From: Lactifluus volemus | Lineage: Eukaryota; Basidiomycota; Agaricomycetes; Russulales; Russulaceae | Reading direction: 5' to 3' | DNA: 64,000 bases | NCBI GenBank assembly: GCA_022376515.1 | Contig: WTXI01000009.1 | Coordinates: 806,001 to 870,000 of the forward strand | Part shown: one piece after another, positions 12,508 to 59,000 of the stretch | How the letters are laid out: every line of letters begins with the position of its first letter | Position numbering within the stretch: position 1 is the stretch's first letter | The notes under the pieces: model-generated | Seen by the model: only the letters and a program-made list of their open reading frames with translations | Told to the model about the DNA's origin: nothing | Databases searched by the model: none | Program-made: the position numbers and the translations under genes

Positions 12508-12539
12508 CGTGCGTCTTCTTCACAGTCGGCTACTACTGT

Positions 12540-35663: not shown

Positions 35664-38600
35664 ATGATAACCCCAAAATGGCGAGGGTTACCATTGTCAA
35701 ACCTTTTTTCAGAAGTTTCCGTGATGTCTTGTCCTTCCTCGTCCCTCCCCTCGTCGATCCAGCCCGCCTCCTCGACCCAACGCACCGTCTCGTACATACT
35801 ACCCGGCTCCTCGACCCAACCCACCGTCTCGTACATACTACCCGGCTCCCCGCCTCCACTATCGCCCCCCTCGCCATTCCCCTCGTCCTACTTAGGGACT
35901 GTCACCGCTCCCGCCTCACGCCCACATCTATCTTCACATCTGATTGGTCCGCCATCAGAACCACTCCCTCCTGCATCTCCAGCTAGCCAAGCCTTCAAAC
36001 ATCGCTTCAGCTTTCAAAAACTTGCTGCACCTGAGCCATCAAAGGCTGCTCGCCAGTCTCCCCCGTTGGCTCTGCGGACCGCGGACCTTGCCGCCGTAGA
36101 TCAGAGAGACCCACGGACAGTCACGAAGGCATTGGAACGAGCCATTCAACAAAGACTAGAAGAGAGAGCCCGGGGAGAGTCGGCACAGGCAAGGGCAAAG
36201 GACGATGTTCGGTCACTTGTGGAGCGTTTACTCTCGGGTAGGCCACCACCGAATGAGGAGCGGTCCTCCATTCTTTCAGCATGTGTCCAAGCGTGCGAAC
36301 TCGGGGGCCTGAATCTTTCTACGGTTCTACAAGAATTAACGATTGATGGGTGCCCACCGATATATTGGGCCATCGTAAACAGGGCTGCAGCATCCGGGAG
36401 CGACAATGTGGAGCTTGATTCCATTGTGTTCGCTTTGTTGGACGCCTGCCGACCTCTTCGTCCAGTAACCCTTGATGCCATCCGTCGCGCCTGCATGAGG
36501 GCGTCTGATAATGTCCTTCTCCAGCGGCTGTTTCTGGACATTCCCCTTCTCTCACCTCTTTCCGCGGGAGATATGATATTGCTGGGTAAAAACCTGAAAG
36601 ATCACGTCGACGTTGATGAGAAACGGGATGGCACTGGATCATTCGTGGCTTATATCAAAATCCCAAAGTTCCCACTGCGAATGCGCCTTTGTCATTCTGT
36701 CACGATTCAGTTCGTCGCATCATGTGCGTGCCCTTCTTTCCCGCGTGTGTCCAGAGGCCTGCGTTTTTACGCAACCCTCCCACAGGCAGGCTTTGGATAC
36801 TCAGATTTAACGCGGTTGTTGAGACTGCAGCGACGAAAGGTCAACCCGAGAGCAAGTGGTATCTCTCTCTTGAATTGGGCCAAAACTCGCCGCCGACAAC
36901 GGTCAACGCAAGCCTCATCGCAGGGCCCTCAAATCCGGCAGAAAATCGCGGTCCTGACCCTGCTCGGACAGTCTCATTCGGTTGTAATACGCCCGAACTA
37001 TCTCCTGGTCGTCTGCTCAGAGTCCGGCTCGATGAATGTCCGATAGGCCCCCACTTACTTTCTGGGTATGTCAAACTAGCATGCTCACACCCGTTGCCTC
37101 TAAAGCATCTGACTATTCGAAGATCATCACTGTTTGTCGGTTCGAACAAGACCTTCCACGCCGAGCTGTCCCAGTCACAACGTCCCCAGTTGCTCGCCGA
37201 TACTTTGATTACCTCAGTTTCAAGTTCACCGCAATTGGTGATACCTACCCCTGAATTACTGCAATCTCTACCTCTTCCCCCTACACCGAAGAAAAAGAGA
37301 TCAAGCCCACCGCACACAACGTTGCGGAGAGGGGGACGAATAGGTAATACACGTGTTCGTTTTTATTCCTAGCATTAGTAAACGTATCTGGTGCTGTAGT
37401 CGACCATGGGATATGGACTACAGCCCCGACTTTAAGCTCTGGATCCCGGACCGCTCCTAAAGCCACCGCACCATGCCTTCCACTAAATTCAAGAGGTATT
37501 AGTCACACCCGATCTCATTTCCGTACACACGTTTCTGACTTGGCCGTCAGGCGCTACAGGTGGATCGACAAAATGGTCTGTAGCTGGAACCAGTGACACG
37601 AGCCCGAGCACAAGTACGCCACTATCCACAGGAGAGGGAAATGAAGTTACGCAGAGCGAAAGCGTGACGTTGACAAACCCCGACTCCGGAGACTCTCGGT
37701 TGCCACCTCCGCCTTCTAAAACGGTCTTAGTGTTTCCAATACCTGTCGCTCCGGAAGAGAATTACCGCGCCAATCATTACTCCCGTACGTTGTTATCTGC
37801 TGTGTGATCATATCACTGGAGGCAGGGTATGCTCAACTTGCCGCTTTCCAGGGAAACCGGGAGTTCCTCCTCCCAGTACTCCCATGTTTTCTGCCGCAGA
37901 ATCAAATACTGCCAGCTCTGTTGATGGCTATCAGGGATCCCGTACACGGTCGTCGTGGGCCTCTGTGCCTACCGTATCACCCGGTCTCTCACCACCTCCG
38001 GATCTAGCGCCGCCACCAAGCTTGCCACCGAGTCCGGACCTACCACCACCTTGGGATTTGTCATCACTTTCCTGTCTCCAACCACCCCCGGGTGCACCCT
38101 TTTCGTCACACGAGTCTTGTCCCTACGATCACGCGGGCAGGGGCCCCAGATTCAGTTCGATTATATCCTCGCCGGATGGTCAACAGATTTTCTCCATCGA
38201 TGGTGACGACATAAAGCATGCCACAACGGGAACAATAGATGGAAACATGTCTACATCAGTTTCTGAGCACGATTCACAAAGGGAGAATACCTTGCACCCT
38301 GAAAAAGGATCGACTCCTTATATCACAGCAAACGAAGCTTACACTCACGCTCTGCGTATGGAAACACCACTCCAGGATGCGTTGGCCATCATTGGTTTCA
38401 GTGGCGAGTACATCCTTCAGGTTGGCTTCAATCCCATCGCACTACAAGAGGGCCTACTCATTGAAGAGATATACCTCTCCCTCAACGGAGACCTGCCTTT
38501 TCTCAATGACCAACCTGAACATGAGACATTTGCATCTATTTTTACTCCATTTCCTGGTGTGGTGTGTACCAAAGAACACGTCTACTACCTCCCTGTCGAC

Positions 38601-39923
38601 CCGCTTGCCCATGGCTACCCTCACTTGTCTTCCCTGGGTGGTTTCAAAGTGAGAACCGCCAACAACAGTGCAAGTGCAAGTGCAAGTGCGAGTGCGAGTG
38701 GCGGAGGAAGCCCTGGAAGTGATGAGAGTGGCAATGGTGACCTCCGCGGAAAGGGGAAATCCAGAGAAGACCGACCTGGGGCGGAAGGAGGTGGGGAAGG
38801 TGGCAAGGATGAAGGTGATGATGCCAGCGACGTTTCAGGAAAGCCCGGTGGGGGCGACAGCACCCCTGATCCTGGGTTTCACATCACTTTAAAGTCGATG
38901 CTGTCAATCAAAACCGGAAGCACGGTTTCTCATGATGTTACAACACGTGTAAATGCTGCGGTCATGGTAAGCTCATTCAATATAGAGGTGATATAAATTC
39001 ACCTTCGGTTCATGTAGTTCGATGCCAGCGTCCCAGATCATTGGCCGGGTCCAAAGATAGGAGTCGATATGTCTGAGGTTACTGTATCCTCTGAGACCCA
39101 TTGTGAAACCCAGGGTACCCTTGCTGGCCAACCAGCATACGTGCTATCACTAGCCGAGGTCTACATGACTGGATGTTCAACCGAAGAAATCGTGCTAGTA
39201 GGAGCCACTCCTGACGGTGTCTTTGCTGGTGGGGACTCAAAGAAAAGGACTGCGAACAAAGGCTCTTCCATAAACATAGGAGCAGGTTTCGTAGCCCCGA
39301 ATGGACCAACTCTAATGGCTGGGTTCACAAATGGCAAGGGGCGGGGTGCGGAAGAGACGGTCGGCCGTTGGGATATCTCTTTCCATTCACTCACTTCCAA
39401 CGTCCGTCGAGCCCATCTAACAGACCAAACCTATTCTTCTGTTGACGGTGGATCTTGGAAATTTGTCCCAAACACTGAAGACTTTGGCCGTGTCACGGCG
39501 GCAAAGTTCAAGGATGACCTTTCTCCATCAGGGATATTCCACATGTGGAAGAGGGCACCGACAAAGCTGGAGATCAAGATAATGTCGTGCTGGGAGACCC
39601 AGCCTGCTGGGTCAGCCAATCGCTGGAACACGCTGTTCAAGACCATGCTGCGGAGACCGGCCGCAGAACCAATTCCAGCGTTTGCAAACTTTATTTGCGC
39701 GGTGTCCACCGCTATCCACATGGAAAAGGTCCCCGATAAGGATATCTACGTCCTGTTTGAGAAAAACTTTGAAGGGGAGCTACTCGAGGAGCCTCAGCGT
39801 TTCAAAACTGTCAAGAAGCTGGTTGAATATGAGAATCTGGAGGTGCCGATGCTTTCCGCAATCATGGGGAGAACATCGCTGAGTAAGGCAGTACATCGTC
39901 ATCAAGGAAATATTTTACCATGA
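35664..39923 (+). CDS. uncharacterised N-terminus fused to the shared C-terminal module, 1329 aa
   Basis: Exons 35664-36723, 36786-37343, 37379-37495, 37551-37784, 37852-38966 and 39018-39923 total exactly 1330 codons. The start may instead be Met 21 (35724), because the first codons abut repeat DNA. Residues ~1-110 are Pro/Ser-rich. Residues ~140-520 are a globular region with an ankyrin-like stretch (DGCPPIYWAIVNRA), then RLWILRFNAVV and KWYLSLEL; I cannot name the family. A Pro-rich linker follows (~650-700). From about residue 750 comes the module also found in the genes at 41556 and 47501: STPYITANEAYTHALRME, FSGEYILQVGF, LLIEEIYLSLNGDLP, a Gly/Asp-rich low-complexity stretch with (Ser-Ala)n, then SMLSIKTG, IGVDMSEVTVSS and FKDDLSPSGIF. 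There are no signal peptide or membrane spans. Function unknown. Confidence 0.8.
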
Positions 39924-40655
39924 ACACTCTCATGGCCCGCTTCCCTCACCCACATTTCCATCTCCAACGCTTCATGTGCATCCGCCGCCTACGACGATTT
40001 TGTACAAGTCCCAAGGCCCACGTTTTACTATGCGATGGGCATCGAGCCAGCTTCATATCTTCTTCAAACATTTTGAACCCTTCCGCCGATCCCGGTAACT
40101 TCCCCAGCTCTTTCCCTTCGTCTCTTTCACATCGCGCTTTCCCTTGCCTATTGAGGGCACCAATAATGCCAGCAACACACCCCACCCGAACCCCTGTCCC
40201 CACCTCATCTGAGAGCGACATGGATAGCAAGAAATGCACACAAAGAACCTTTCGGGAACAGGGAGGTCGGGTTATACCAATTTTTGCTTCCATCATTCTA
40301 CAGCACCACCTCTTCCTTAGTACGTAATACCACTAGGCGGCGCTTTGCAAACTGCGGCGTCTCGAGTGCGCCCGCACCGGAAAAGTTGGGGACGCCCCTT
40401 ACTACTTTCTGTTTCACCTTCTTTCGCTTCACTCCGTTACTGTATTATCAATAAGTAAGTGCAAACGGACTTGTTGTAATAAATTGCACGAAGGAAGATA
40501 ATATATTCAGTTATTGGCATCGTTTTTGCTTTCCTGTGTCGCGCGAACCATTTTCGCTTTCCACTCGAAGGCCCTTATCTTATTTTAACCAAGCCATGCC
40601 GGAGTTGCTTTCTAATCTGCAAGCCCGAGTGCGTGAAAAGCGTCGCGCAATTAGA
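39924..40655. other. no recognised gene
   Basis: Downstream flank of the preceding gene. Only short frames without family resemblance. Confidence 0.4.
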
Positions 40656-41150
40656 TGACTTCTTGTGCGGTACCTCTATCCTGAAGCCCGGGACCCCACC
40701 GACAGCGTAAAAAACTCTCTTGTCCGCAGCAACGATAGCTCATGGTGGCATCGTCCGATAGGATAAACTTATCCCGGAACGGAGTCACGTGGCAGGATGC
40801 CCCAGAATCGTAGACTTTGGCTTCAATGCCCTAGGAGTGTGGTATGCCCGCTGCGACTGCTGACTCGATTTCTTTGTCGCGCACGACCCACTTGATGGCT
40901 GGCTTGCCCACGCCTCCTCCCCCGCACCATCTACTGACTCGATATTGGCTTCTTCGTCTGGAGCGGCGCAGCCGCTCTTGTTCGCGCCACCTTTCGCCTC
41001 GCCCAGATTTTTGCCTTGACGTTCCCACGTTTGGCGGGGAGGGCATATTAGCGCGTGTGTGGAAATGCTGCTTGTATTCACTGATCAAACTTGGTAGTGC
41101 CCACAGTGATGGCACAATCGTCAACATGCACCGCAAGTATCACGGTGTCA
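40656..41150 (-). pseudogene. Ty1/copia retrotransposon fragment (gag end and protease)
   Basis: Read on the minus strand, a protease active-site motif VYDSGASCHVTPFRDKF is followed, after a frameshift, by AADKRVFYAVGGVPG. This is the usual gag-protease context of Ty1/copia elements. Upstream is a Lys/Gly-rich stretch like the region after a gag zinc knuckle. Stops and frameshifts interrupt it, and no LTRs were recognised nearby. It is a short relic. Confidence 0.65.
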
Positions 41151-41555
41151 CTCCCGACTCGGATCTGCCCGCGAAGCACACCCCGGGTCTGCCTGTGACG
41201 TGTAAGCGACTCGCGGCTGACATGTGTATTTTCTTTTTGTACTTAAACAATTATAACAAGCAATCACTGCCAACCAGTACAGTAAAGCCATGTAATAGCC
41301 GGGCTACAAAACCTACCAAAACGGGAATACTGTACGAGTTCCGGTGGGAATCGGGATAGTAGTTTGCGCCAACTTGAACCATTGTTGGGCCTAGTATAGC
41401 AGACTGCAGTGCAGATACGTTACCGTGAAGTTCATGGATTAAACGTGTTTGCGTTTTCTCCTTTCCCTTCACTCTTTCCGTCTCCGTGCCATCCCTATTC
41501 TTTTCGTACATATCTATTCACTCAGAAGTGGTCACTGCCACTATCTTTGACGGCC
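41151..41555. other. spacer upstream of the BTB-module gene
   Basis: No gene seen. A pyrimidine-rich stretch at 41450-41530 just before the ATG is consistent with a fungal core promoter and 5' UTR. Confidence 0.4.
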
Positions 41556-44227
41556 ATGGACTCCGAGTCAGCAGTGAGCGCGGGCCCAAATTGCGCGCGC
41601 GTCGTTCGTCGTCATCGTGAATACTATTTCAAAGAAGCGGACATCGTCTTCCGCGTAAGATGCTAGTGATCGAACATCGTGTTGGTTGTTAATGTGAATT
41701 GATAGGTTGAAGATGTTCTGTTTCGTGTTCATCGCTATTTCTTCACACGCGAGTCTCCGTACTTCCGTTTCAAACTCCCCCACCCGGGCGGTGAAGGCAC
41801 TTCCGATAGCAACCCTTTGGTCCTCGAAGACACCCTCGCGATTGATTTCGAATGCTTCCTTTGGGTGTTTTATAACCCGTGTGTTTTCCATTCTTCGTTT
41901 CTCACCTTTGCTAATGTAACGCACCAGAAAGTTTTCAATTTATGATGCCACAATTGATAACTGGATTTCTATCCTAAAGCTCTCAGGACGATGGGGGTTT
42001 GCTGAGGTCAAAGCCCTCGCCGTTCGTAAACTTGAAGAACTTCAGATTCCCCCTCTCCAGAAGATTGTTACCTACCGCACTTATTCTGTCAACCCTAGCC
42101 TCCTTCAGGGAGCTTATGCCGCACTTACACTGCGCGATGAGCCCCTCACAATCGAGGAGGGTCGCCAGCTCGGTCTGGAAACTGCCCTGAAAATCTCTCA
42201 TGCCCGCCAAATCATGCGAACACCTGATTTACGTGGACGGAAACTAACAGACCACCGTGACAATACCTATGCCCTCCTCAGGGAAACCTTCCAATTGTCC
42301 TTTCCTGACGTGGGCGTTGAAGACGCTTCGTCGGCTTTGAAGGAGAAAGAGGACCAGGGACCTGCGCCTCCGCGTCCACCACCTCCATGTGCGTTCTTTT
42401 CGTCGTACGAGTCTATCTGTGCTTATAATCATGCACTTCAGACAAGCGTCTCAAATCCGATTCGACACCATCGGTCGCCGCAGTATCCTCTCCAAATAGG
42501 CACCAGATCGTCTCCGTCAGCACTCATGACAAAGGTCAAGATTCGACAGGGTCAATAGAGGGAGACACGTCTGCTTCAGTTCCTAAAGATGACACACAAA
42601 GAGAGAACAGCTTGAATCTTGACAAAGGAGCGACTCCTTACATCACAGCAAACGAGGCTTACAGTCACGCCCTGCGCATGGAAGCACCACTCCAGGCTGC
42701 ATTTTCCAACATTGGTTTCAGTGGCGAGTACATCCTGCAGGTTGGCTTCAGTCCGGTCGCACTGCACGAAGGCCTACTCATAGAAGAGATATACCTCTTC
42801 CTCAATGGAGACCTGCCTACACTCGATGACCAAGTTGTATCTGGGACATTTGCGCCTATTTTCACGCCGTTCCCTGGAGTGGCATGTACCCAAGAACGTG
42901 TGTACTACGTCCCTGTCGACCCACCTGCCCATGGCTACCCTCACTTGTCATCACTTGGCGGTTTCAAAGTGAGGACAGCAAACAGCAGTGCAAGCGCAAG
43001 CGCAAGCGGCGGAGGAAATCCTGGAGGTGATGACAGTGGTGCCGACAATGGTGACCTCTACGGAAAAGGGAAATCTAGTAGGGAAGACCTGCCTGAGGCG
43101 GGGGAAGGTGGGGGTGGCAACCATGAAGGGGGTGGTGGTGGAGACGACCCAGGAAAGCCCAGTGGAGGTGACAGCTCCCCTGATCCAAAATTTCATATTT
43201 CTTTCAACTCAATGCTGTCAATCAAAACTGGAGACACAATCTCTCATGATGTCACAACACTTGCAAATGTTGTGATCACGGTAAGCTCGTCGTGTTGAAC
43301 ATGGCGATGACATGAACTCACCTTTGGACTTAGTTCGATGCCAGCGTCCCAGATCCAACTCATTGGCCTGGCCGAAAGATGGGAGTCGATATGTCTGAGG
43401 TTACCGTATCCTCTGAGACACAGTGCGCTGGCCAAGCAGCATACATGCTGTCACTAGCCGAGGTCTACATCGCTGGATGTTCAACCGAAACAATCATGCT
43501 AGTAGAGGCCACTCCTGACGATGTCTTTTCTGGTGGCGACTCAAAGAGAAAGACTGCGACCAGAAGCTCTTCCATAAATGTGGGAGCAAGCTTTGCAGCT
43601 GCGAATGGGCCAACTCTAACGGCCGGGGTCACAAACAGCAATGCGCAGTGCGCAGAAGAGGCGGTTGGGCGGTGGGACGTTTCTCACCATTTGCTCACTT
43701 CCAAAGATCGTCGAGCATACCTACGGGACCAACCCTATTCTTTCGTTGGCGGTGGTTCTTGGAAATATGTCCCAAACATTGAAGACTTTGGCCATGTCAC
43801 GGTAGCAACGTTCAAGGACGACCTTTCGCCATCAGGGATATTCCGCATGGAGAAAAGGGCACCGACAAAAATAGAGATCAAGATAATATCATACTGGGAG
43901 ACCCAGCCTGGTTCAGCTAATCGCTGGAATGCGCTGTTCAAAACCATGCTGCCGCGGAGGAGGCCAGCGGAGCAGATTCCGGGGTTCGCTAACTTTGTTT
44001 GCTCAGTGTACGCTTTCATCAACTTGGAAAACTCGCCTGATAAGGATATGTTTGTTCTGATTGACGACAACTACGAAACGACGCTTCGGAAGGAGCCCCA
44101 GCATTTCCGAGCTTCCAAGCAGGTGGTCGGATGTGAGAATCTGGAGGTGCAGATGGTTTCCGCAATCATGGGGGAAGCACCACTAAGTAAGACAGAACAT
44201 CGCCATCAAGGAAATATTTTACTATAG
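41556..44227 (+). CDS. BTB protein fused to the shared C-terminal module, 821 aa
   Basis: Exons 41556-41654, 41706-41878, 41928-42388, 42442-43280 and 43334-44227 give exactly 822 codons with the stop. Residues ~1-240 are the agaricomycete BTB type: ADIVFRVEDVLFRVHRYFF, FLWVFYNPKFSIYDATIDNW, LQKIVTYRTY and AALTLRDEPLTIEEGRQLGL. BTB domains dimerise and recruit partners such as Cul3 ligases. A Pro-rich linker (PPRPPPP) ends at a phase-1 intron (gtgcgt..cttcag), and the module of unknown function fills residues ~244-821. The Gly/Asp-rich insert is present here in shorter form. Frames are intact. Without the linker intron the BTB frame would stop at 42558, so the fusion rests on that 53-nt intron, which has good borders and is conserved in position in the NACHT gene. 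Confidence 0.8.
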
Positions 44228-45183
44228 GCAAGGTGGCAACTTGGGCACAAACGCCTCGTCCATCGGCACCTCATATTCCAAAACATGCGGCCACATACCA
44301 CGATCCTCCCATGACGAGTTTCTATAAATCTCAAGACTCCTCGAGCTTTTACTATTCATTGGGTCAACCATCTCCGTCGTTCTGACACTCTCCACCCTTC
44401 ATCGCGGCTTTTCTACGCCCTCTTCTCATCTCTCACGGCATTTCCCCTTTGCCTCTTGAAGGCGCCGGTGTGCCGGCAACATCCGTGTCTGCACTCGGTC
44501 TTAGAGTGGCATCTGCGGCAAACGAGATGGGAGAACGGGTTGCAAGGTGGGTCAAACTGGAACAACTGGAGACCATTTTATGTACAACACTATGTACCCA
44601 CGCCATGATACGCACGGGTGAGTTGACAGGAGCCTTCACAACTCCAATTGAAGATCTTTGATGTATGTTTCATAGCCGTATGGCTCAGATGCTCTCTGTC
44701 ATCTTTCCTTTTACTTTGAATTGAAATGGAAGGATCGCACAAAGGCGATGGTGTCCACACGCGCCATCTAGTCAGATGACTCACTCACGAGACTCCAAGA
44801 CTTTTCATTCTCCCGGGAAAGGCAAGGCTGACACACGTACCTGCAGAGGGACATGGACATGGTTGGGATGGGCAGCGTGACACCGTGGACCACTCCTCAG
44901 TGCCAGTGGGTGGACACGAGGAATTAAGGGATTACAGAAAGAGAAAGGTCAGTCAGAGATGTGAAAAATTGTGATGCACCCAGGACCGTGCTTAGAAACA
45001 ACGGCAGTGTGATGACACACTTGAGGGTGATGGCATGGCCACTGGCCTTGGTATGACGGTAATGGGAGGCGATGACTTGGGTGGGGTTGTTGACCATCGT
45101 GCAAACAAGGATGTCTACATAGATACTAATCGAGATATTATAATAAGTCGAAACAAAGTTGAAACGCGGAAAATGATCCAGTC
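42389..45183. repeat. duplicated module cassette, copy 1
   Basis: From the linker intron through the module exons and about 950 bp of downstream DNA, this matches 51506-55317. Shared downstream words include gtttctataaatctcaagac and gtcgaaacaaagttgaaacg. The copies differ by about 740 bp present after the stop only in the second copy. At 45184 the cassette is joined to an ABC gene fragment. Confidence 0.85.
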
Positions 45184-45455
45184 CGGGTGTGTAAGCGAGT
45201 GGGCATGCATAGTGGAGCGGAAGGGATAAAACGTAGAACAGACTCGGGTCGCAAAATCTGTTAAGATGACCAACTTCAAAAAATGCCGTCTTTTCACCCG
45301 CACCTGACCCAACGACTGCCCAACTCTCTCCTTCTCGAACTGTCCAGTCAAGAGCACGGAGGACAGGTTTAGCATTGTTGGGATCGCCGAAACGATAGAC
45401 AATGGCTGTAGGTATTCGTACGGCATGAGAGACGAGCGACCATTTTGGGTGGTGG
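45184..45455 (-). pseudogene. third fragment of the ABC ATPase gene (5' end)
   Basis: Matches 15000-15258: first intron, Walker A exon and start region of the intact ABC gene (gcattgttgggatcgccgaa; gaccattttgggtgg). It contains an insertion of about 45 bp and a deletion near the start codon. It carries the 5' part that copy 1 (3606-5546) has lost. No other part of the gene follows. Confidence 0.88.
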
Positions 45456-45872
45456 GCCCGGGGCGGCCGGGTTGCCCTTCACACACGAAAATCAACATTG
45501 TGCAAACAGTCGTAAATAACACACCCACCGTAACGACTTAGCGAGAATTTCGCGAGTCACGACTTAGCATATTTTTTTTCGGACTTTAGTTAAATTACAT
45601 AAATTAATTTTTTATTTCTGTTTGCTTGTCTTAAGTGTCTTACACATCTTAATTACTTAATGTGCTTATCTTTGGCCTTGATTTGCTTACTTGTTGTACA
45701 TACTCATTTTCTAAGCAAAAAATAAGCAGCTTGAGCAACTTGACAGGCTTAAAAATGAAATAAGCTGATTAAACCAACTAAGTTTTTTCTGGATTTTCCT
45801 GATGGCCAGAGCAGTGGACAAGTGGTGTGGACACTGCTTTTCACAAGAGGGGGACATGGAATGGGGATTAGG
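45456..45872. other. MITE fragment and AT-rich spacer
   Basis: 45488-45575 shares words with the palindromic repeat at 30263-30480 (atcaacattgtgcaaaca; cgacttagcgagaatttc). The rest is AT-rich with no gene. Confidence 0.5.
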
Positions 45873-45880
45873 GATAGCGG

Positions 45881-47324
45881 TAGTGTTGCCGCGGTCCGGT
45901 GCGGTCCAGTCCGGTGTGTCAACTCGGACGCAACTTGAAAAATCGAGTTCACACCGGTGCACACCGGTGTAACTCGATTTCAGACGCAAAGGGTTTCACA
46001 CGGGCCAGTCAACAGCTTTGTTATAGTAGTAAATTACAATTTGAAGTCCTATTCCCAATTTTCGTCCATGCTGTTAAGCAAATCCCTTAATTCCTCTATG
46101 TTACCCAAAGATATAAGCTCTTGTATTGCTTCCTCTGTCGCATGATCAATGGCATAGCCTTCTTCTTTGGCAACCAAGTGGGAACTGGATAAATCAAATT
46201 ATACTACTCATGAGCAAAGCTTGCAGCTAATATATTTGGCCTCGGGGCGCCGTGTCAGCCACTGGTCCTGATTGGGAGGTGGCCATTCAACCGATTTTGT
46301 TGGAGAGTCTTCAGGCCGACAGAAATACCAGACATCAGTTGCTGCAGCAGGTTGCTCTGTGACATGCCGCTTAGGCACTGGTGGTCGAAAAGAGGCTGAA
46401 GTTGAATGACATTTCCCCGCTACCGAGCGTGCAGGGGTAGCCGGTGGTGAGCTGCTTCAACAGTTGTTGGAGGGCCAACACCACATATCGAGGATGGAGG
46501 CTCTGTGGTAGGTACTGCTGGGATGCGGGGCCGTTTCCGAGGGGGCTGTTGAGGGTTACTTTTGGTTGCGGTTGACTTGCGCTTGCCCTTCCGAGTCAAG
46601 TTTGGGGTTGCCATGCCATCCCCACTATTTTGCTCAGGTGGTTCAGCAGGAGGTGCAAGGGGAAATGAGAGACACTGAGAGGGCACATTCAGTTGAGAAT
46701 CTGAATGTTGTGAAAACGCGATGGTGCCATAGCCACTTCCATGAAGATCTGGGAAGTGAATGTATGAACTGGTGAACGCGGCGGGAGCAGCACAAGCTAG
46801 CGGCCCGGGATGAGATGTCAAGATGGCCGCATTCACTGGAGGCGTAGGCTGATGCAGCTGACTTCGCTCATCGTGGTACCGTTGCCCTTGTGATGGAATA
46901 CAGTTACAGCCATTAGGACCATGAATGGGGCAACTTGAAGGGCAACTCAGAGGCATCAGTCCATCCACCACATTGAGAGGGAAACTGGGGGTGAATCTCA
47001 AGCTTGAGCCACTTGGCTCTCTTTATAACCGTCTCGTTTGAATAGTGCCATGTGGGGACAAGGATGCGAGGTAGCAATTGTGTGCAAAACAATCAAAATC
47101 TATTATGAATATGTCTTAATAACGGGTATTTACTTCGACGTCGTCTACTGACTCAACGTCAACGCATGACTCGTTTGTGTAAGTGGGAAAGTATTACTAA
47201 TCAGTCTTCCACACACCGCGGTGTGGACCGGTGTGAACTCGATTTTTCGGTCCGGTCCGAGTTGAGAAAAAAACGGGTGGTGTGCGAGTTGGACCGGTGT
47301 GACACCGGACTGGCGGCAACACTA
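45881..47324. mobile_element. hAT element, 1444 bp, internally deleted
   Basis: Inverted ends tagtgttgccgc at 45881-45892 and 47313-47324. Exact 8-bp target duplication gatagcgg at 45873-45880 and 47325-47332. Subterminal regions repeat ccggtgt and aactcga motifs, including a strong hairpin at about 45942-45979. The interior keeps only a BED-type N-terminal coding relic. It ends 177 bp before the NACHT gene ATG. Confidence 0.95.
46200..47001 (-). pseudogene. N-terminal part of a BED zinc-finger hAT transposase
   Basis: An open frame from 47001 to 46420 is Pro/Ser-rich with a basic stretch (GKRKSTATKSN, then PPRKRPRIP) that could be a nuclear signal. Beyond a stop or short intron, the frame continues ATDVWYFCRP, then RRPEAKYISCKLCS. 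This is the aromatic and Cys-x2-Cys half of a BED finger. The catalytic core and dimerisation domain are absent, so this element depends on another transposase. Confidence 0.6.
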
Positions 47325-47500
47325 GATAGCGGGGGGTGGGATGACAGCGTGGGAAGTGTAGCGGACATGTACAGTTACCCAGCGCTAAGATAAGCACAGA
47401 CAAGATAAGCACAGACAACGCGGCTTCATCCCCAACCACTACATCCTCAAGGCAGCACCCGACCCCCCAACGGATATGTCGAACCTAGCATCAGAAACTG

Positions 47501-50500
47501 GTGCGTCATTCTGATAGTCTCAAGATCGTCGATAATCTGTCTGACAAGAGGAACACAGAATTGGCCGCAATAATCGGAGAAAGCCTTCTTTTGGGAGGAT
47601 GGCGATTCACCGATAGGGAAGGCTGTCATCAAGGCACACGCAAAGGCTTCTTGGATCACATCGTCAAATGGGTCGAGAATCCCGGATCTGAATGTGGTCT
47701 CGTTCTCTTTGGCCAAGCAGGAACAGGAAAGTCCTCAATTGCTCACGAGGTCGCACTTCACTTCGTCGAGACGTATCTCGGTTCTTATGTTGCTTTTTCG
47801 CGGGCGGAGCAACCCAAGGATGAAGCTTATCATTTTGTTACGACGCTTGCCCGTGACCTCTCCGATCGCTATCCTCCGTTCAAGCTTGGCCTCAGGAAGG
47901 CCATTGCGGGCAATTCGTCTCTTCGTGCCACCCGAGATTATCATAGACTCTTTGAGTGGCTCCTCCTTATACCACTCCAGAGCCTACCACCTGGTAATCC
48001 AATTCTCATCGTCGTCGATGGCTTGGATGAGAGTGGTGTCAAAAATGGCAAAAATCCACTGCACACGTTTCTTGCCCGATGCCTTATCGACCTCCCGCCA
48101 AACTTTCGCATTCTCATCACCTCGAGGTCGGAAGATGCCATCGAACATGCATTCGCCAACGCAAGGTCCGTCCGTACTCTGTACATGAATGACCGCCAAC
48201 TGGCTTCCAATACGGAGCAAGACATTAGCCTGTATATTCAGAGCAAGCTCTGCGAGGACGTGTTCAAAGACCATGGTAGCAAACTAGTGCAGGCGTCGGA
48301 GGGCTTGTTTCAGTGGGCGGCCGTTGCATGTGGTTTCATAAACAGCCCTGCAAGTCTTGGCCTTAGCTCCAACGAGTGTGTACAGCGCCTGTTGGCATCC
48401 TCTCGAGGTCACAGTGGTGAAGGTCCGCTGGACAACTTGTACGAAGAAGTCCTCCAAGGGTACTTTAATTCAGATGAAGCCCAGGCTCTGTTTCGGTCCA
48501 TCATGGGACAACTTTTTGCTGCGATCGAACCCCTCTCTATCAATTCTTTGATTGCTCTGCAACAGCATGCACCCTTTGTTCACCCCAAAGATTCCAACCT
48601 CGTCCTCAGAATGCTCCGGTACCTCGGCTCGCTGCTGAGTAACGTCAATTCACGTGATCAAACGCGCCCAGTCCTTCCCCATACTTCATTCCGCGACTTT
48701 CTGATGAGCAAGACGAGCGACGTGTTTTATGTAGATCTTGCGGATGCTCACCATCAGTTGACACATTCCTGCCTTGGTTTAATGCTCGATGAACTCAAAT
48801 TCAACATCTGCAAACTCGAGTCGTCATATCTCGCCAACAGCGACGTCCCAGACTTAGAATCTCGAATCGTCAAATGTATTCCGTCTGCTCTATCATTTGC
48901 ATGTATTTACTGGGGCGATTATTTGTACCGTCTTGCCTTCGATCACGATGTCCTCAAAAAGCTTCAATTGTTCTTCGAAACAAAGTTTCTGTTTTGGCTG
49001 GAAGTGCTTAGTGTCAAGAAGAGCATTGGCCTTGCTTCACGAGCATTGTCATCCCTGTTGGTATGGTTGCGGCGAGAGGTATGTCCACCGCATAATTCAA
49101 TATGACATGTAGTGACTTGTGCGTGAAATCGCAATAGCGTTCACAAACGGAAGTGATGAATCTGTTGGGATTGGTGAAGGATGCATCTTCATTCGTGCGG
49201 TATTTCGGAATGGCGATGGCAAGAAGTGCACCACATATCTACGTCTCTGCCCTGCCTTTCACGCCGGCCTCTTCCCAGATCCTGAAACAATACCTTCCCC
49301 AATTTCCTCGGACATTGAGGTTGGAACGCGGGCAGTTGTTGGATTGGCCTGGATTGGAAATGTCGATTGAGGCACATGACCACTCGGTCAGCTGTGTTGC
49401 AATATCGCCGGACGTGGAGCGGATCGCATCGGCCTCTTCTGGTTTCACGATTCGGGTGTGGGATGCCACAACAGGACATATGGTAGCGGGCCCGTTTACT
49501 GGACACACCGACTGGGTCTTCTCTGTTGCATTCTCACCAGACGGGGAGCGTATCGCATCGGCCTCGGATGATCGCACAATTCGGGTGTGGGATGCCACAA
49601 CAGGACAGATCGTAGCGGGCCCATTTACTGGATACACCGATCGTGTCATATCTATTGCATTCTCACCAGACGGGGAGCGGATTGCATCGGCCGAGGATGA
49701 TCACACGATTCGGGTGTGGGATGCCACAACAGGACAGATCGTAGCGGGCCCATTTACTGGACACACTGATTGGGTCAGATCTGTTGCATTCTCGCCAAAC
49801 GGGGAGCGGATCGCATCGGCCTCAATTGATCGCACGATTCGGGTGTGGGATGCCACAACAGGACAGATCGTAGCGAGCCCATTTACTGGACACACCGATT
49901 GTGTCAGATCTGTTGCATTCTCGCCAGATGGGGAGCGGATCGCATCGGCCTCGAATGATCGCACGATTCGGGTGTGGGATGCCACAACAGGACAGATCGT
50001 AGCGGGCCCATTTACTGGACACACCGATTGTGTCAGATCTGTTGTATTCTCACCAGACGGGGAGCGGATCGCATCGGCCTCGGTTGATCGCACAATTCGG
50101 GTGTGGGATGCCACAACAGGACAGATCGTAGCGGGCCCGTTTACTGGACACACCGGTCCAGTCGGATATGTTGCATTCTCACCAGATGGGAAGCATATCA
50201 CATCTGCCTCATCTGATGACACGATTCGGGTGTGGGATGCCACAGCAGGACAGATCGTAGCGGGCCTGTTGACTAGACACACCGATTGTGTCAGATCTGT
50301 TGCATTCTCACCAGATGGGGAGCGTATTGCATCGGCCTCAGTTGATCGCACGATTCGGGTGTGGGATGCCACAACAGGAAAGATGTTAGCGGGCCCGTTT
50401 ACTGAACACACCGATTGTGTCACATCTATTGCATTCTCGCTGAACGGGGAGCGGATCGCATCGGCCTCGGAGGATCGCACGATTCGGGTGTGGGATGCCA

Positions 50501-53297
50501 CAACAGGACAGACCGTAGTGGGCCCGTTTACTGGACACACCGATTGGGTCCTCTCTGTTGCATTCTCACCAAACGGGGAGTGGATCGCATCAGCCTCGGT
50601 TGATCGCACAATTCGGGTGTGGGATGCCACAACAGGACAGATCGTAGCAGGCCCATTTACTGGACACACTGATTGGGTCAGATCTGTTGCATTCTCACCA
50701 GACGGGGAGCGGATCGCATCGGCCTCGGATGATCGCACAATTCGGGTGTGGGATGCCACAACAGGACAGATCGTAGCGGGCCCATTTACTGGACACACCC
50801 ATGGTGTCACATTTGTTGCATTCTCACCAGACGGGGAGCATATTGCATCTGCCTCTTCTGATTGCACGATTCGGGTGTGGGATGCCATGACAGGACAGAT
50901 CGTAGCAGGCCCGTTTACTGGACACACCGATTGTGTCAGATCTGTTGCATTCTCACCAGACGGGGAGTGTATCGTATCGGCCTCGGATGATCGCACGATT
51001 CGGGTGTGGGATGCCACAACAGGACAGATCGTAGTGGGCCCATTTACTGGACACACTGATTGTGTCAGATCTGTTGCATTCTCACCAGATGGGGAGCATA
51101 TTGCATCTGCCTCTTCTGATTGCACAATTTGGGTGTGGGATGTCACAACAGGACAGAACCTGTTTACTGGATACACCGATTATTCGGTCACATCTGTTGC
51201 ATACTCAGCAGATGGCCAGCGTACTGCCTCACCCTCAGACCATGACACAATTCATGAGGTGAAGACTGCAACCGAAAATGTCAAGAACCAATTTACGGAT
51301 CAATCCTTGATTGATAGTGATGGTTGGTTATATGGAGAAGAGAACAAACTTGTGCTTTGGATTCCCAAGTTACATAGGCAGTGTCTTCATAGACCCAGCA
51401 CTATCTGGATTGCAGGCAAACATGAGACACGGCTTGATCTCTCAAATTTCGCATATGGATCAAATTGGGCTGGAGCTGCATCTCCGGGTCTCCCACCACC
51501 TCCGTGTACGTTCTTTTCCTCGTACAAGTCTATCTGTGCTTATTTCGATTCCATCAGCCGCCACAGTATCCACACCAAATAGGCACCAGATCGTCTCCGT
51601 CAGCACTCATGACAAAGGTCAAGATTCGACAGGGTCAATAGAGGGAGACACGTCTGTTTCAGTTCCTAAAGATGACACACAAAGAGAGAGCCGCTGGCAC
51701 CTTGACAAAGGAGTGACTTCTTACATCACAGCAAACGAGGCTTACAGTCACGCCCTGCGCATGGAAGCACCACTCCAGGCTGCATTTTCCAACATTGGTT
51801 TCAGTGGGGAGTACATCCTTCAGGTTGGCTTCAGTCCGGTCGCACTGCACGAAGGCCTACTCATAGAAGAGATATACCTCTCCCTCAATGGAGACCTGCC
51901 TACACTCGATGACCAAGTTGTATCTGGGATATTTGCCCCTATTTTTACTCCATTTCCCGGTGTGGTTTGCACCCAAGAACGCGTCTACTACCTACCTGTC
52001 GACCCTCTTGCCTCTGGCTACCCTCACTTGTCTTCACTTGGTGCTTTCGAAGTGAGAACCGCCAACAACAGTGAAAGTCCAAGTCCAAGTGGCGGAGGAT
52101 GCCCCGGAAGCGATGAGAGTGGTAACGGTGACACTCACGGAAAAGGGAAATCCAGAGAAGACCGGTCTGAGGCGGGAGGAAGTGGGGAAGGTGGCAAGGA
52201 TGAGGGGGGTGATGATGGAGACGACCCAGGAAAGCCCAGTGGAGGCGACAGCTCCCCTGATCCTAGATTTCATATCACTTTCAAGTCAATGCTGTCAATT
52301 GAAGCTGGAGGCGCAGTCTCTCACCACGTCACAACACTTGTAGATGCTGTGATCACGGTAAGCCCATCGTGTTGGATATGCAGATGACGTCGTGGCAGGA
52401 ACTCACCTTTGGACGTAGTTCGGTGCCGGCGTCCCAGATCCAACTAATTCGCCTGGCCCAAAGATAGGAGTCGATATATCTGAGGTTACCGTAGCCTCTG
52501 GGACCGAGTGTGCTGGCAAAGCAGCATACGTGCTGTCACGAGCCGAGGTCTACATGGTTGGATGTTCAAAAGAAACAATCGTGCTAGTAGGGGCCACTCC
52601 TGGCGATGTCTCTCCTGGTGGCGACTCAAAGAGAAAGACTGCGACCAGAAGCTCTTCCATAAATGTGGGAGCAAGCTTGGCAGCTGCGAATGGGCCAACT
52701 CTAACGGCCGGGGTCACAAACAGCAAGGGGCAGTGCGCGGAAGAGGCGGTTGGGCGCTGGGGCATCTCTCACAATTTCCTCACTCCCACGGACTGTCAGC
52801 CCTACCTAAAGGACCAACCCGATTCTTTTGTTGGCGGTGGTTCTTGGAAATATGTCCCAAACATTGTAGACTTTGACCATGTTAAGGTAGCAAGGTTCAA
52901 GGATGATCTTTCGCCATCAGGGATATTCCGCATGAATCACTGGGCGCCGACCAAGGTATATATCAAGATAATATCATGCTGCCAGTGGGAGACCCAGCTC
53001 GGGCCAGCTAATCGCCGGAAATTGTTCAAACCAAAGCCAGCGGAAACAATTCCGGCGTTCACTAACTTTATCTGCTCAGCGTCCACTTCCGTCAACTTGA
53101 AGAAGGCGCCTGATAAGCACCAATTTATTGTGATTGACGAAATTTACAAAACGACGCTTCAGAAGGAGGAACAGCATTTCCGAGCTGCTGAGAAAGTGGT
53201 TGGATGTGAGAATTTGGAGGTGCAGATGGTTTCTGCAATCATTGGGGAAGCACCACTAGAAAATCGCCAAGGAAATATTTCACTATATGCAAAATAA
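47501..53297 (+). CDS. NACHT-WD40 NLR-like protein fused to the shared C-terminal module, 1874 aa
   Basis: Exons 47501-49078, 49138-51505, 51558-52357 and 52419-53297 total exactly 1875 codons. NACHT NTPase (residues ~45-360): P-loop GQAGTGKSS, Walker B ILIVVDGLDES, RILITSRSE sensor. A helical region follows (~360-600). Then come 14 WD40 repeats of 43 residues plus one degenerate unit (~620-1250), and the usual tail DSDGWLYGEENKLVLWIP and WIAGKHETRLDLS. A Pro-rich linker (GLPPPP) ends at a phase-1 intron (gtacgt..ccatcag), after which the module shared with two other genes occupies ~1316-1874. Fungal NACHT-WD40 proteins act in non-self recognition and programmed cell death. No N-terminal effector domain is seen; the true start may lie further 5', and a hAT element ends at 47324. 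Confidence 0.85.
49369..51255 (+). repeat. array of near-identical 129-bp WD40 repeats
   Basis: Fourteen 43-codon units of the type GHTD.VRSVAFSPDGERIA, SAS.DRTIRVWD, then ATTGQIVAGPFT, plus a decayed fifteenth. Most units are almost identical in DNA. Differences concentrate at the residue after HTD, the residues before SVAF, and the SxD position. High identity with variable surface positions is typical of NLR WD arrays that exchange repeats. The antisense strand is open only because of the periodicity. Confidence 0.95.
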
Positions 53298-55317
53298 GGT
53301 CAGCCCTCGAAACTTCGTTCTGTACGCCACGTACGCGCATTCCCGTCCTTATCTCGTTCTACTCTCCCAGTGACCTTCGGTTGCTTCAAAAACTCCTGGT
53401 TCATCGCCATGCCCTTCTCGTCTCGATCATGACGAAAGGGCCACGGCATCATCTCGGGCTGCGTTTTGTGTCTCGCGCCGTGCCCAAACCTTCAAGGCTT
53501 AGTCCAACGGACCAACTCTTTTCGAAGTGAACGCGAGCATCCCATGAAGCCTTCTGAGGGTGCACGCGACTTCGAAGTTTTGTTAATCTTCATTTTTACT
53601 TCTTGGCTTTTGATTTCAGTCCCGTTTGTACTCTTTACACCCCGCGCTTTCTTCCCGTTTCTTTGTCCCACTTCCGATGACCCTTTACTTACATTCTTGT
53701 CTGGTGTTTTTATACCTGTTCGACTCGCTATACGGTTACTTTCTCACCCATTCTCAGTGCGTCTTCCTATTTAGAGATTACCTGGTTCTGATGTATATAT
53801 ATGATGGACCTGCGAAATGTACTTGGAGGGGCAGCGAAGTATCGCCGCCAAGTCCCCTAGTATTCTCGAAAATATCTCGTTTGCTTCAAGTCTCTCGGCT
53901 AGACAGTTTGCTCTAGTCCATCTTTCCTTACGCGATCTCGTCTCCAGGTTCTTGACATATTCCTCGCCGCTGCTCTCTTCTCTCTCAATTCAAGTCGTCG
54001 AATCCCGAAATCACAAGCAGGCGACTTCAATTAGTTACTTTCAGCAAGACGGCAACTTAGGCACAAACACCTCGTCCATCGGCACTTCCTCCCTTCTCAC
54101 ATTCTAAAACAATGCGCGGCCTCATACCGCGATCTGCACACGACGAATTTCTATAAATCTCAAGACTCCTTGAGCCTTTACTATTCATTGGGTCCTCAAG
54201 TTCAACGAGCTCCGTAGTTTTGACACTCTCCCTCCTTCCTCGCGGCTTTTCTACGCCCGCTTCTCATCATCTCTCACGGCATTTCCGCGTTGCCTCCGGC
54301 AGGTGTCGGTGTGCCGGCAACATCCCACGTTGTCCATGTCCGCACTCGATCTTAGAGTGGCATGTACGGCAGACGAGATGGGAGAACGGGTTGTGAGATG
54401 CTTTTGAGAGCAGCAAGGTGGGTCAAATTGGAACAACTGGAGGCCATTTTATATACGGTACAATGTAAACACGCCGTGATACGCACGTAGGACTTTCACA
54501 ACTCTAATTGAAGAGCTTTGAGGTATGTTTCACAGTCGTGTGGCTCGGATGCTCTCTGTCATCTTTCCTTTTACTTTTACTTGAAATGGAAAGACCGCTC
54601 AAAGGCAATGGTGTCCACACGCGCCATCTAGAGTCAGATGACTCACTCACGAGACTTCAAGACTTTTTCATTCTCCCCTGTCCAGGGGCTGAGGACTAGG
54701 CCAGGCTGCCACATGTACATGCAGAGGGACATAGCCGCGGTTGGAATGGGCAGCGTGACAACTCACGGAAGAGGAGCAGAAGGCCTTGGGGGGCATCGTG
54801 ACACCGTGGACCACCCCTCAGTGCCAGTGGGTAGACGCGAGGTATTAAGGAATTATAGAGAAGAGAAAAGTCAGTCAGAGATGTCAAAAGAAAAAAAATT
54901 GCGACGCACCCAGGACCGTGCGTAGAAACAACGGCAGTATGATGACACACTTGAGGGTGATGGTATGACCACGGGCCTTGGTATGACGGCAGCAGCAGCA
55001 CGGGAAGGTTGCGGGGAGGAGGGGGAAGAGGAGGAGGCATCAGGGAGGCGTTGACTGCACCAGCGAGTGTGTGTGCTCGAAACGAATAGATGAGACGATG
55101 ACTCGGTGAGGTCGTTGACCATCGTGCAAACAAGGATAAACATGCACGTGATTAGTGCTTTTTTCACGACTTGGTCAGGAATCAGGATACAGTATATGGG
55201 ATCGGGCTTAGCGACGCTTAAGGACCCATTTAAGGTCAATGACTATCTAAGTTACATTGATACCAATCGAGATATCAAGTCGAAACAAAGTTGAAACGGG
55301 GAAAATGATCCAGTCCA
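51506..55317. repeat. duplicated module cassette, copy 2
   Basis: Partner of 42389-45183, starting within the linker intron of the NACHT gene. It includes about 740 bp after the stop codon (53298-54040) that the other copy lacks, and a MITE-like insertion near 55120-55250. Homology ends near 55317. Confidence 0.85.
53298..55317. other. downstream DNA of the NACHT-module gene, no gene recognised
   Basis: The segment after 54045 is homologous to 44228-45183. Frames are short, and those shared between copies are not better conserved than their surroundings. Confidence 0.45.
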
Positions 55318-56015
55318 GGTTGCACTCGGGGATGGCGGGCTTCTCTGACCTTCCGCGGTCATCTTCGGCCTCTCGGATCCCAGCACCTCCTCCCAAAGCG
55401 CTAAAATGTTCCAACAACCATCATCATGTTCACCAGATAATCCTTATGAGGTTATCGCGCTTATGTCCGGACTGCGGGACCACGCGGTCACGCGATCACG
55501 TCTCAATTGTTGGGCCAGCTAATGGCAGTTGATAAATTGATTTTACAAGGTGGACCTTACCTGCACCCTTGAATTCGGCCACTTTCACATCGAGACGCCG
55601 CCTATCAGCGCGCTTCCATTCTTCCACCGCCCCTTACCCTCTTTTTACGGACCATCGAGCGACGTCGCGCGCAAAGGCAAGCTGTTCGGAGCGTTGCCGG
55701 TACAGCGCCTCCTCGGCTGAAGCCTTTCATTCGTCTATCATTTGTTTTATACCTAGGGGGCCAGTGCTTTCTAGCATTGTCTTTAAAGACTTTCCCTTTT
55801 TCGTTGCTTGAACTACTTGACATCTATCTCGTCACTCGTTACAGCTCCGGCTACTACCACGCGTTCGACTACCCCACGCGTTCAATTCTCGTTCGCTTCC
55901 GATTCGAAAACGTCCTGCGACCGTCTTTATCGTTACCCTGCGCGTCCCTCCAAAATCCTCTTCGTCGACTCCCTTTTGCTTCCTCGGACTCGCCCGAGTA
56001 CGTTAAGCGGCCAAC
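55318..56015. other. spacer and 5' region of the vacuolar protease gene
   Basis: Pyrimidine-rich stretches and many short frames. No family recognised. Promoter and 5' UTR of the protease gene are expected in the last 300 bp. Confidence 0.4.
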
Positions 56016-59000
56016 ATGTTTAGTTCTGCAACCGCATTTGTGTCCTTCTTCTACTTGGCCGTATTCACATCCCTCTATCTAACTCAGTATGGCCCCTCTC
56101 TTCCCTCCCTCCAAAAACAAGATGAGCTGGGCATGAGTGTTAGGCGTGCGTACAGAGACCTGTACCAATTAAGTTACTCAAGCAACTTCCTTACATTTCT
56201 CATATTAAACCGTACTTTCCAATAGATCGCAGACCTCCCTCACCCTTATAACTCCCGTCAAAATGACTACGTACGCAATTTCGTACTTGGAAGACTACAG
56301 CAGATAACGAAAGAGCGTGACTTCATTCACGTCGACGATGATATCAATACGAATGCTGCGTTCTTGGATCGTTCGAGAGGCGTATACTTTCAAGGAATGA
56401 ACATTCTCGTCAAAGTCGACGGTACCGACAACATGACCAACAGTGAGTCTCTTCACTCATGGGAAAACTATGTCAAAATAAAGGATTTTCATGAACAGAT
56501 GACGGTGTACTCTTCTCGGCCCACTTCGATTCTGTCTCCACAGCTCCTGGAGCGACCGACGATGGCATGAGTGTCGCAGCGCTGATGCAAATGGTCACCT
56601 TTCTATCCAACAACCGTCCGAGGCGGACAGCAGTGTTTAACATCAACAATGGTGAAGAGAATGGCCTTCATGGTGCTCATGCGTGCGTTGCTTTCCATCC
56701 ACCCTCCGTACTTTGCTATATCGGCTTTTCAGATTCCTGCACCATCCTTGGTCGAATTTGACGTCATCTTTCCTCAACTTTGAAGGCGCAGGATCTGGCG
56801 GGTATGCTCCATAGCTGTGTCTCTTGCTTACCCCCTATCTGAGACTTTCCAGTCGACCTTTCCTCTTTCGGACTACATCATACGACGTCCTGAAAGATTT
56901 CCGTGCAGCATCACATATACATGCAAATGCAATCTCGCAAGATGCCTGGGACCGAGGCGTCATCCGCTCAGACACAGATTATTCCGTCTACTCTGCTCCT
57001 CGCACCTCGAGTTATTTTCGCTTGAAAAGCGACAATGTGACAGCAAATGCCAGTAAGCACGGATATCAAGGCCCCGGAGGCGGTATGCAAGGCGCAGATA
57101 TTGCATTTTATCACGGGCGTTCGCGATATCATACCATGGATGACTCGATTCGTGGAATGGGATATGACGGTGCCGGTGGACGGAGATCCTTGTGGGCTTT
57201 GATGGAGCTGCTTCGCACGGTGGGCAACAGCATGCTCAATAGCCAATCAGAAAGTGGCGCAGGTGATGAAAAAGAGAAGGCTGCCTATTTTGAACGTAGG
57301 ATGATTTTAGTCCATCATTGGTGAAATTAAACTCACGCATGTACCCAGTATTCGGGGTGTATCTTGTCGCCTTCCGCTTCCGCACGTTGCTAGTAGTCGA
57401 GATGGTCCTCGTTTCTATAGGCATAATCATCGGCCTCCTCGCTGTCGCCCAACGACTCCTCGGATTTGTTCCTCGCCTTTCTCTTGGCACCCCTGCGCCT
57501 TCTTCTCAGACGGCAGCTGATAATCCCATCACCTGGACTACCGCGATTGCGCACATCAGCTTTCGAGGATATGGCCGGTTCTTGCTGGCTCTTATTCTGG
57601 GTACCGGTGCCCAAGTAGGGCTCGTGGTTGGCTTTTTGAGGCTGAATCCTAACGTCTGTAGCTTTCTCTATCTGTGAATAACTGCAGTACTGACCCCGGC
57701 GTAGACCATCCACGCCCATCCAGTAGCCACTTCGATTGCCGTGTTCACATTGGCTTATTTGTCCCTGGCCATTCCTCTTCAAGGCGCCCAACGTCTACGT
57801 CCCATTCCCGCTAGCAAGCAGCGAATTGTCATCTTGATCGAACTTTACGCGCTCACCTGGGCTCTCCTCGTCGGCACATCGACCCTGACGCGACGATTCG
57901 GCATAGCAGGACTTTCCTGGATTCCGTTCTGGAACGGATCCTTACTTGTAGCAGTGACATCAGTCTTGTTTGAGCGTCGCTTGTGGGGTATCAGCAGACA
58001 AGTGGATACAGCGGAACTTCGTCAAGAGGAGACTGAAGACTCTGAGACCATGCCTTTACTTCAGAAGAGCGACCGCCCAACTGATTCGTTGGTTCTAGAC
58101 GAGAGGATCAAAGATGAAGCGCCTTTCTTGTGGATCCTCCAATTTCTGTTCTCAGCGGTGGCACCGGTGGTGAATCTCTCTACATTTTTCACCCTCTGGA
58201 TTGGCTCTATGCATCAAACCGTCCCAGATGGCGGTTCGGTTGGAATAGGTATGCGAGGCCTCCTGCTACCTTAGAGTTTTCAAGTCTTGATCGACACTAC
58301 TTTTGAATAGTATATGCGCTTATCTCAATACTCGCATTTCTTATCGTCCTCCCATCAGCGCCTTTCGTACACAAAATTCACCGTGTTCTTACCGTCATCA
58401 CGTTCGTCATCTTCATCATGTCTACGACATATGCCTTGTTTGCATCCCCCTTCACACAAGACGCCCGGCTCAAGGTGTTCTTTGCCCACGAGGTCGAACT
58501 CACAAATTTGACTGCGACAATCCCGCATCCGCGAATAACGCGGGCCGTCGCGCAAATAAACGTGATCGAGGGCTACGGCCCGCGACTCGTGACCACCCTG
58601 CCATCGTCGTGGGGTGATGCTGACCACGAGGACAGCGACGTAGAGTGTGAAGCAGGAAAGCTGCAGGCTGGCATAACGACCTGTACATGGGCTCTCCCGC
58701 CAGCTCTCTATCCGTCGACCCCTGGCGCTAGCGAGGACAAGGGCGCATGGCTGGTTGCGAATGCTACGCGCCTCGGGCCTGTCTCGCTTCGCGTCGAGAT
58801 TGAAGGCGTCGAGACGCGGTCGTGTAGAATCTACGTGGACAGTCACGCTATACGGCGATACCGCGCTCGGACAAGACAAGGATCGAGCTTGGGCAAGAAA
58901 ACGGAGAGTAGCGCGGATGTAGCTTGGAGCACGTTCGAGGTGCCCCACGGGGTGGAAGTCCACTTGCTGACGCTCTGGTCGCGTACTTGGGGTTCGCGCT

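Follow-up and report, generated by a model that had tools for sequence, protein, structure and literature searches.

A C-terminal module without a named family behind BTB, NACHT-WD40 and other genes of Lactifluus volemus

How does one and the same protein module come to lie behind genes that are otherwise unrelated? The question is raised by a stretch of 64,000 nucleotides from the basidiomycete Lactifluus volemus (assembly GCA_022376515.1, contig WTXI01000009.1, positions 806,001 to 870,000; hereafter the window, on the contig that we call C618). A preliminary description of this DNA had placed a common C-terminal module on three genes: an ankyrin-like gene (gene 1), a BTB gene (gene 2) and a NACHT-WD40 gene of the NOD-like receptor (NLR) type (gene 3). 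Judged by sequence, the module exists, as do two fusions at gene level, but three independent fusions do not. The reading that we prefer, at a probability of about 0.6, is that a lineage-specific gene may have been captured recurrently at the 3' side of other genes, in NLR-rich DNA that varies between haplotypes.

A shared module outside the named families

The window contains three homologous modules of about 540 residues each, W1 (38226-39923), W2 and W3 (Table 1), with spliced lengths of 548, 542 and 535 residues. Pairwise identity over 528-536 aligned residues is 70.7% for W1 and W2, 65.3% for W1 and W3 and 76.7% for W2 and W3, which bears out the claim of a shared C-terminal module in three places. 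Each copy consists of two coding exons around a GTAAGC...TAG intron of 51, 53 and 61 nt, respectively. The preliminary description was also right that the module belongs to no named family: Pfam gave zero matches for one module copy and a chance-level E of 0.036 in one of seven copies, the best NCBIfam match (E 0.021, in one of four proteins) fell far below the cut-off, and the best match among PDB sequences was at chance level (E 0.95). The public models P0001 and P0002 likewise gave zero matches to a named domain. Nor is it a known domain that always occurs alone, since it matches no named family and is also joined in one exon to another head at four loci. The module appears to begin with an alpha/beta domain, predicted with modest confidence, which may or may not have an OsmC/Ohr-like fold; an acidic stretch rich in Gly and a second domain without an assigned fold follow. 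It may be regarded as an orphan gene family that has so far been met only in Lactifluus volemus and a few public records.

Table 1. Positions of the module copies, their heads and linkers, and the haplotype-variable stretch in the window
Feature	Position	Strand	Remarks
Ankyrin-like gene region	35664..37372	+	unnamed, conserved; usual C-terminus ...LRRGGR kept, then 10 codons and TAG
Module gene 1, exon 1	37884..38966	+	ATG, Pro-rich N-terminus, module first domain, Gly/Asp-rich stretch; taken as a separate gene
Module gene 1, exon 2 (second domain)	39018..39923	+	
BTB part of gene 2	41556..42388	+	exons 41556-41654, 41706-41878, 41928-42388; PF00651, E 1.8e-6
Segment homologous to 51472-53292	42358..44231	+	starts inside the Pro-rich linker
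Candidate linker intron, gene 2	42389..42441	+	GTGCGT...TTCAG
Module 2 (W2)	42546..44227	+	first exon ends at 43280, second starts at 43334
Stretch replaced in haplotype contig C64 (28848-34579)	45485..55165	.	9.7 kb; flanks 98% identical
NACHT-WD40 head	47469..51471	+	5'-truncated; paralogue homology starts at 47469 or 47470
Candidate linker intron, gene 3	51506..51557	+	GTACGT...CATCAG; acceptor lacks homology to the gene 2 acceptor
Module 3 (W3)	51629..53297	+	first exon ends at 52357, second starts at 52419; a mosaic, in part of gene-2 type and in part of C64/C523 type

Junctions with the three heads

Gene 2 resembles BTB/POZ proteins in carrying a BTB domain above the family cut-off (PF00651, 28.5 bits against 20.5) and in having paralogues in the genome, and differs from them in its C-terminal orphan module of about 540 residues. 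The gene (41556-44227) splices to an open model of 821 codons plus stop, which upholds, at the level of gene structure, the 822 codons given earlier; several other splice choices are open too. The donors of the model are GTAAGA, GTGTGT, GTGCGT and GTAAGC. A paralogous BTB gene (C13:858173 and C60:43410; L045, L046) likewise has a long extension at its C-terminus: it runs in one frame for more than 1140 codons, and in L045 its tail is of low complexity and rich in Ala, Lys and Glu.

The head of gene 3 contains a NACHT domain (PF24883, E 2.5e-19; PF05729, 31.3 bits, cut-off 26.7) and 14 WD40 stretches. Its WD40 array (49387-51157) is made of 13.7 units of 129 bp with 87% matches, and is in this respect like hypervariable fungal NLRs, for which the part of the literature used here describes highly similar repeats. 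From 47501 the spliced model is open for 1875 codons, stop included, and would place NLR and extra domain in a single frame that relies on the candidate linker intron and has no established start. The earlier account of a NACHT-WD40-module gene therefore holds for its codon number and domains, but not for its beginning: position 47501 reads GTG rather than ATG (an ATG lies at 47476), and the N-terminal region of the nearest paralogues is absent, homology beginning at the head's left edge in five of five. The upstream open reading frames (ORFs) of the paralogues, inspected in three of the five, lack a counterpart in gene 3. At the other end, five paralogues stop 2-9 residues past a conserved Trp; gene 3 departs from them at about 51471, and these last residues and the stop are replaced.

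DNA homology between genes 2 and 3 begins at 42358 and 51472. Identity between the two is 94-98% for roughly the first 300 bases and 77-95% thereafter; past these 300 bases gene 3 is mostly nearer to the copies on contigs C64 and C523, and downstream of the coding sequence it is again gene-2-like (85-90%). A single copied segment gave rise to the linker of the BTB gene and to that of the NACHT gene, so the two are not independent. In W1, the third copy on C64 and the C523 copy, the linker stretch and the module share an open frame. The simplest view of the Pro-rich linker is therefore that it is left over from the Pro-rich N-terminus that the module gene itself had. The proposal that linker introns sit at the same place in both genes stands in part: both have in-frame candidates with a common donor, but the acceptors differ, that of gene 2 lying within a 34-base stretch that gene 3 lacks and gene 3 having one of its own. 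In dinucleotide shuffles, an in-frame bridge with a strong donor occurred in 32 of 1000 sequences for gene 2 and 38 of 1000 for gene 3, as against 683 and 775 of 1000 for a GT-AG bridge of any kind. The rarity of the former is moderate evidence that the linkers are spliced, and it is counted once because the two genes share the donor.

For gene 1 the best reading is that of two separate neighbouring genes, with the module copy in the second. The ankyrin-like paralogues L051 and L054 stop straight after ...LRRGGR, and the window gene keeps this usual C-terminus and stops in frame at 37370-37372; its first ORF matches no Pfam family above cut-off (best E 0.13). A public model, P0002 (Lactifluus volemus BGW80DRAFT_917017), follows the window letter for letter until its last residues and starts as MFSAAESN at its own ATG at 37884, without the ankyrin-like part; it ends shortly past exon 1, in a frame different from the exon-2 frame used here. 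The supposed ankyrin-like-module fusion is thus unsupported, and the fusions to unrelated heads come down to BTB and NACHT, at the level of gene structure. If gene 1 is allowed at most four introns, each of 45-101 nt, 11 different totals of codons give an open model; the printed paths of 1329, 1330 and 1331 codons each need four introns with weak sites, and a stricter intron scan found zero paths joining the ankyrin-like ORF to the module, so that a sum of 'exactly 1330' carries no weight. The codon-count argument was rejected altogether, because a whole number of codons follows from any frame-keeping model. Against the third C64 copy, 94 codons of the gene 1 Pro-rich N-terminus show 31 replacement and 16 silent changes and 35 gap columns (ends included), which indicates weak constraint.

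Module copies across genome, haplotypes and public records

The genome searched was that of Lactifluus volemus (62.4 Mb, 628 contigs). It gave 41 module matches, which resolve into 21 places and 3 fragments with haplotype duplicates counted. C617c, C112, C462, C454 and C368 are partial copies; these and the three fragments were left out of the inspection of heads, which covered W1-W3, C64 copy 3, C523, C345, C617a, C617b, C610, C512, C114, C607, C594 and C146, and also out of the tree, as was C617a. On these sequences, the module sits behind unrelated N-termini, and beyond the window one more head family bears it. This further family is unnamed and has a C-terminus of ...SQGSWQPILQLNRF, about where most of its members end. 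At C617a, C617b, C345 and C610, the module runs on from that end in one open exon, within open frames of 335-385 aa, and two public proteins (P0004, P0006) show the same join. Matches to the family without the module number 26, with open frames of 46-76 aa in 21 and of 93-234 aa in five (not inspected). DUF6532-like sequence lies upstream of the modules at C512 (E 5.4e-28, 2.3e-5) and C114 (by eye), and is absent from the public model P0001. At C523:33851-38800 (L016, L042), an NLR N-terminal region and an NLR WD40 tail enclose a module copy; zero NACHT matches fall between these parts, the NLR frame at the left join is not the module frame, the codon at the position of the W1 start is ATA, and no intact fusion is shown there. 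A NACHT match lies within 15 kb at six of the 16 module places outside the window (C523, three on C617, C610 and C454; C64 counted once), as a raw count. Haplotype duplicates included, the genome gave at least 91 matches to NACHT, at least 138 to the NACHT region of gene 3 and at least 150 to its NLR tail.

The most diverged copies, C607 and C594/C146, look stand-alone when their ORFs are read, and in a tree rooted on C607 they lie outside a clade that unites all the rest. The window copies, C64 copy 3 and C523 form their own group with 100% support, and P0004 and P0006 join C345, C617b and C610, the three of the four read-through loci that are in the tree, also at 100%. Together with P0002 as deposited, C607 and C594/C146 provide stand-alone homologues in the same genome. 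Seven public proteins carry the module: two belong to L. volemus, and the other five (P0003-P0007), taken from ENA or JGI records, appear to be environmental, because their contigs are short. The three public protein searches were word-limited and scored about 8000 candidates each, so the absence of the module outside Lactifluus is not proven; among 7978 scored candidates of about 1030-3280 aa, a range meant for long fused proteins, none matched the module.

Haplotype contig C64 matches the window over 36738-45484 (98.2%) and 55166-60612 (98.4%), and its copies 1 and 2 correspond to W1 and W2. Where the window has the NACHT gene and W3, C64 carries an ankyrin-like gene and a module gene whose module (copy 3) is 87.8% identical to W3. 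The NACHT head is thus present on one of the two haplotype contigs.

Branch ratios of replacement to silent substitution rates (dN/dS) were obtained by NG86 arithmetic in place of a codon model, and selection was tested on several copies and regions, so that single P values are weak. For the whole module, the ratio is 0.33 for C523, 0.35 for C64 copy 3, 0.31-0.36 for W2 (time before the fusion included) and 0.81-0.99 for W3. Between the alleles of W2, exon 2 differs by 11 silent and 11 replacement codons and one in-frame 6-nt indel, with zero stops. These values indicate that the BTB-fused copy is under purifying selection. In W3, the ratio is 0.29-0.39 over first-domain codons 30-130 and 1.89-3.95 in exon 2 (lower 95% bounds 0.98-1.41). 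Unique changes in W3 exon 2 comprise 40 replacement and 5 silent (P 0.0058 against neutrality at kappa 3), which becomes 24:3 (P 0.053) when W1 must agree; the excess depends on the counting method. Counted by codons, exon 2 gives 36:2 in W3 but 29:25 in three other copies (P 1.5e-5, Fisher), with no such contrast in exon 1 (P 1.0). Seventeen of the 40 replacements give residues that occur in other family members, and three of 38 otherwise invariant exon-2 columns are changed in W3, as likewise in C345. Neutral simulation gave stop-free runs in 16%, 6% and 2% of cases for 60, 100 and 140 changes, which makes the lack of stops in W3 weak to moderate evidence of a kept frame. Positive selection is one reading of the exon-2 excess; relaxed constraint or conversion are others.

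Elsewhere in the window, 546-5441 and 10353-15156 form a direct duplication of 4.9 kb (92.8% identical), a piece of which (5268-5441, 14994-15205) occurs again at 45184-45431, downstream of module 2. An ORF at 19190-21082 on the plus strand encodes a reverse transcriptase (PF00078, E 1.7e-30) of a retroelement, and 16-22 kb show a strong excess of C and A. Further BTB domains lie in ORFs 60170-61465 and 61233-62276, a vacuolar-protease C-terminal domain in ORF 58307-59212, and 59630-60113 is repeated at 63523-64000 (90%).

Proposed recurrent capture and its alternatives

Under recurrent 3' capture, the module family would consist of orphan genes whose most diverged members stand alone, and segmental duplication and recombination would have placed copies repeatedly in frame behind other genes. 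In two cases the join would coincide with the point where the host protein normally ends. Two such captures would be present in the window, one by the BTB gene and one by the truncated NACHT-WD40 gene, with one common copied linker, and the copy behind the ankyrin-like gene would be an adjacent separate gene. A BTB-module protein is probably produced and kept under constraint. The NACHT-module gene, found on one haplotype contig, is proposed to be young; its module would be an accessory domain that changes fast, or else a relic. Several observations weigh against such a history. The NACHT head lacks an N-terminal exon that is known from its paralogues, copying between genes 2 and 3 may have gone either way, and the rooting of the module tree is a choice. 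C64 and C618 differ by only 2 bases and one 1-base indel over 36738-43280 and by 2.5-3.8% beyond, and the change at 43280 could mark either the edge of a recombined tract or a point where the assembly changed phase. One of the five longer matches to the further head family, C607:861862, extends into the linker with two stops, so the history of that family is more complex than four clean fusions. None of the public proteins found in the word-limited searches has the BTB or NACHT fusion, the depositors' models of both genes not having been looked up; and since P0002 holds only module exon 1 and P0001 carries a different C-terminal tail, the depositors' models fall short of confirming the full two-exon module.

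It is possible, if doubtful, that the window fusions are apparent only, with duplicated module DNA lying downstream, the linker introns unspliced and the BTB and NACHT products ending in short junk tails at 42558 and 51582. The unspliced frames do stop at these positions, the NACHT head is truncated, the word-limited searches found no fused public protein, and GT-AG bridges of any kind are common in shuffles. Yet in-frame bridges with a strong donor are rare there, module 2 shows purifying selection, and elsewhere the module is joined to another head without any intron, all of which argues against this reading; under recurrent capture, the linker introns would be spliced out and the transcripts would be in one piece. 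A chimeric assembly through the repeated segment seems very improbable: the NACHT-module junction does lie at a duplicated segment and on only one of the two haplotype contigs, but the gene-2-like part of gene 3 has 95-98% identity to gene 2, short of the 100% that gene 2's own sequence would show, and both flanks of the replaced stretch match C64 at 98%.

What the module might do is a separate matter. Integrated domains of plant NLRs have stand-alone relatives, and the module might in the same way be an integrated sensor or decoy that on NACHT-WD40 receives a non-self signal, its second domain being under diversifying selection. We consider this unlikely. The stop-free exon-2 excess of W3, the relatives that look stand-alone, the many NLRs of the genome and the non-canonical domains reported, in the part cited here, for 8% of Sordariales NLRs (PMC12258605) would all suit it. 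Against it, the excess shrinks when W1 must agree and is missing from exon 1, several copies and regions were tested, and relaxed constraint, conversion from an unsampled copy or a small dS fit as well, with 17 of the 40 replacements giving residues of other family members; moreover, gene 3 lacks its N-terminal region and is the only NLR with the module at its end among the places with inspected heads. The preliminary description had spoken of an interchangeable sensing or output domain. The unnamed module behind unrelated heads agrees with this, but the selection patterns are compatible with such a role and do not show it; a sensing role, like any binding role, is possible and unproven. More improbable still would be the wider idea that mushroom proteins for non-self recognition have in the module an exchangeable C-terminal recognition domain peculiar to the lineage, passed among BTB, NLR and other heads, swapping heads between haplotypes at one locus and with its second domain positively selected once on NACHT-WD40, as expected of an allorecognition or immune locus.

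Gene 3 is like fungal NLRs with integrated-decoy-like domains in having an extra non-canonical domain, often C-terminal there, on an NLR, and differs from those described in the cited part of that work in that its domain belongs to an orphan family without named fold, found also on non-NLR heads, and that the NLR has no N-terminal region (PMC12258605). In a survey of fungal NLRs, roughly half of the N- and C-terminal domains are without annotation and modular exchange of domains is described (PMC4986451); our case is alike in both respects and, set against the portion of the survey used here, adds one specific module with stand-alone-looking relatives and haplotype replacement. Plant NLR integrated domains share the fusion of a domain to an immune-type receptor (PMC9528084, for the passages drawn on), whereas the present case is known from sequence alone and the other fused heads found are not NLRs. 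Our literature search turned up nothing on the NLR repertoire of Lactifluus, and we make no claim that it is unpublished elsewhere.

The module offers an unnamed NLR-terminal domain of which separate and fused forms can be set side by side, the junctions being located to within a few bases. A haplotype contig without the NLR fusion and a second type of fusion in public records aid this comparison and, together with the separate and fused forms and the junctions, make the locus a tractable case for how receptor-like proteins gain C-terminal domains. The module family also becomes open to tests of whether it takes part in the recognition of non-self by fungi.

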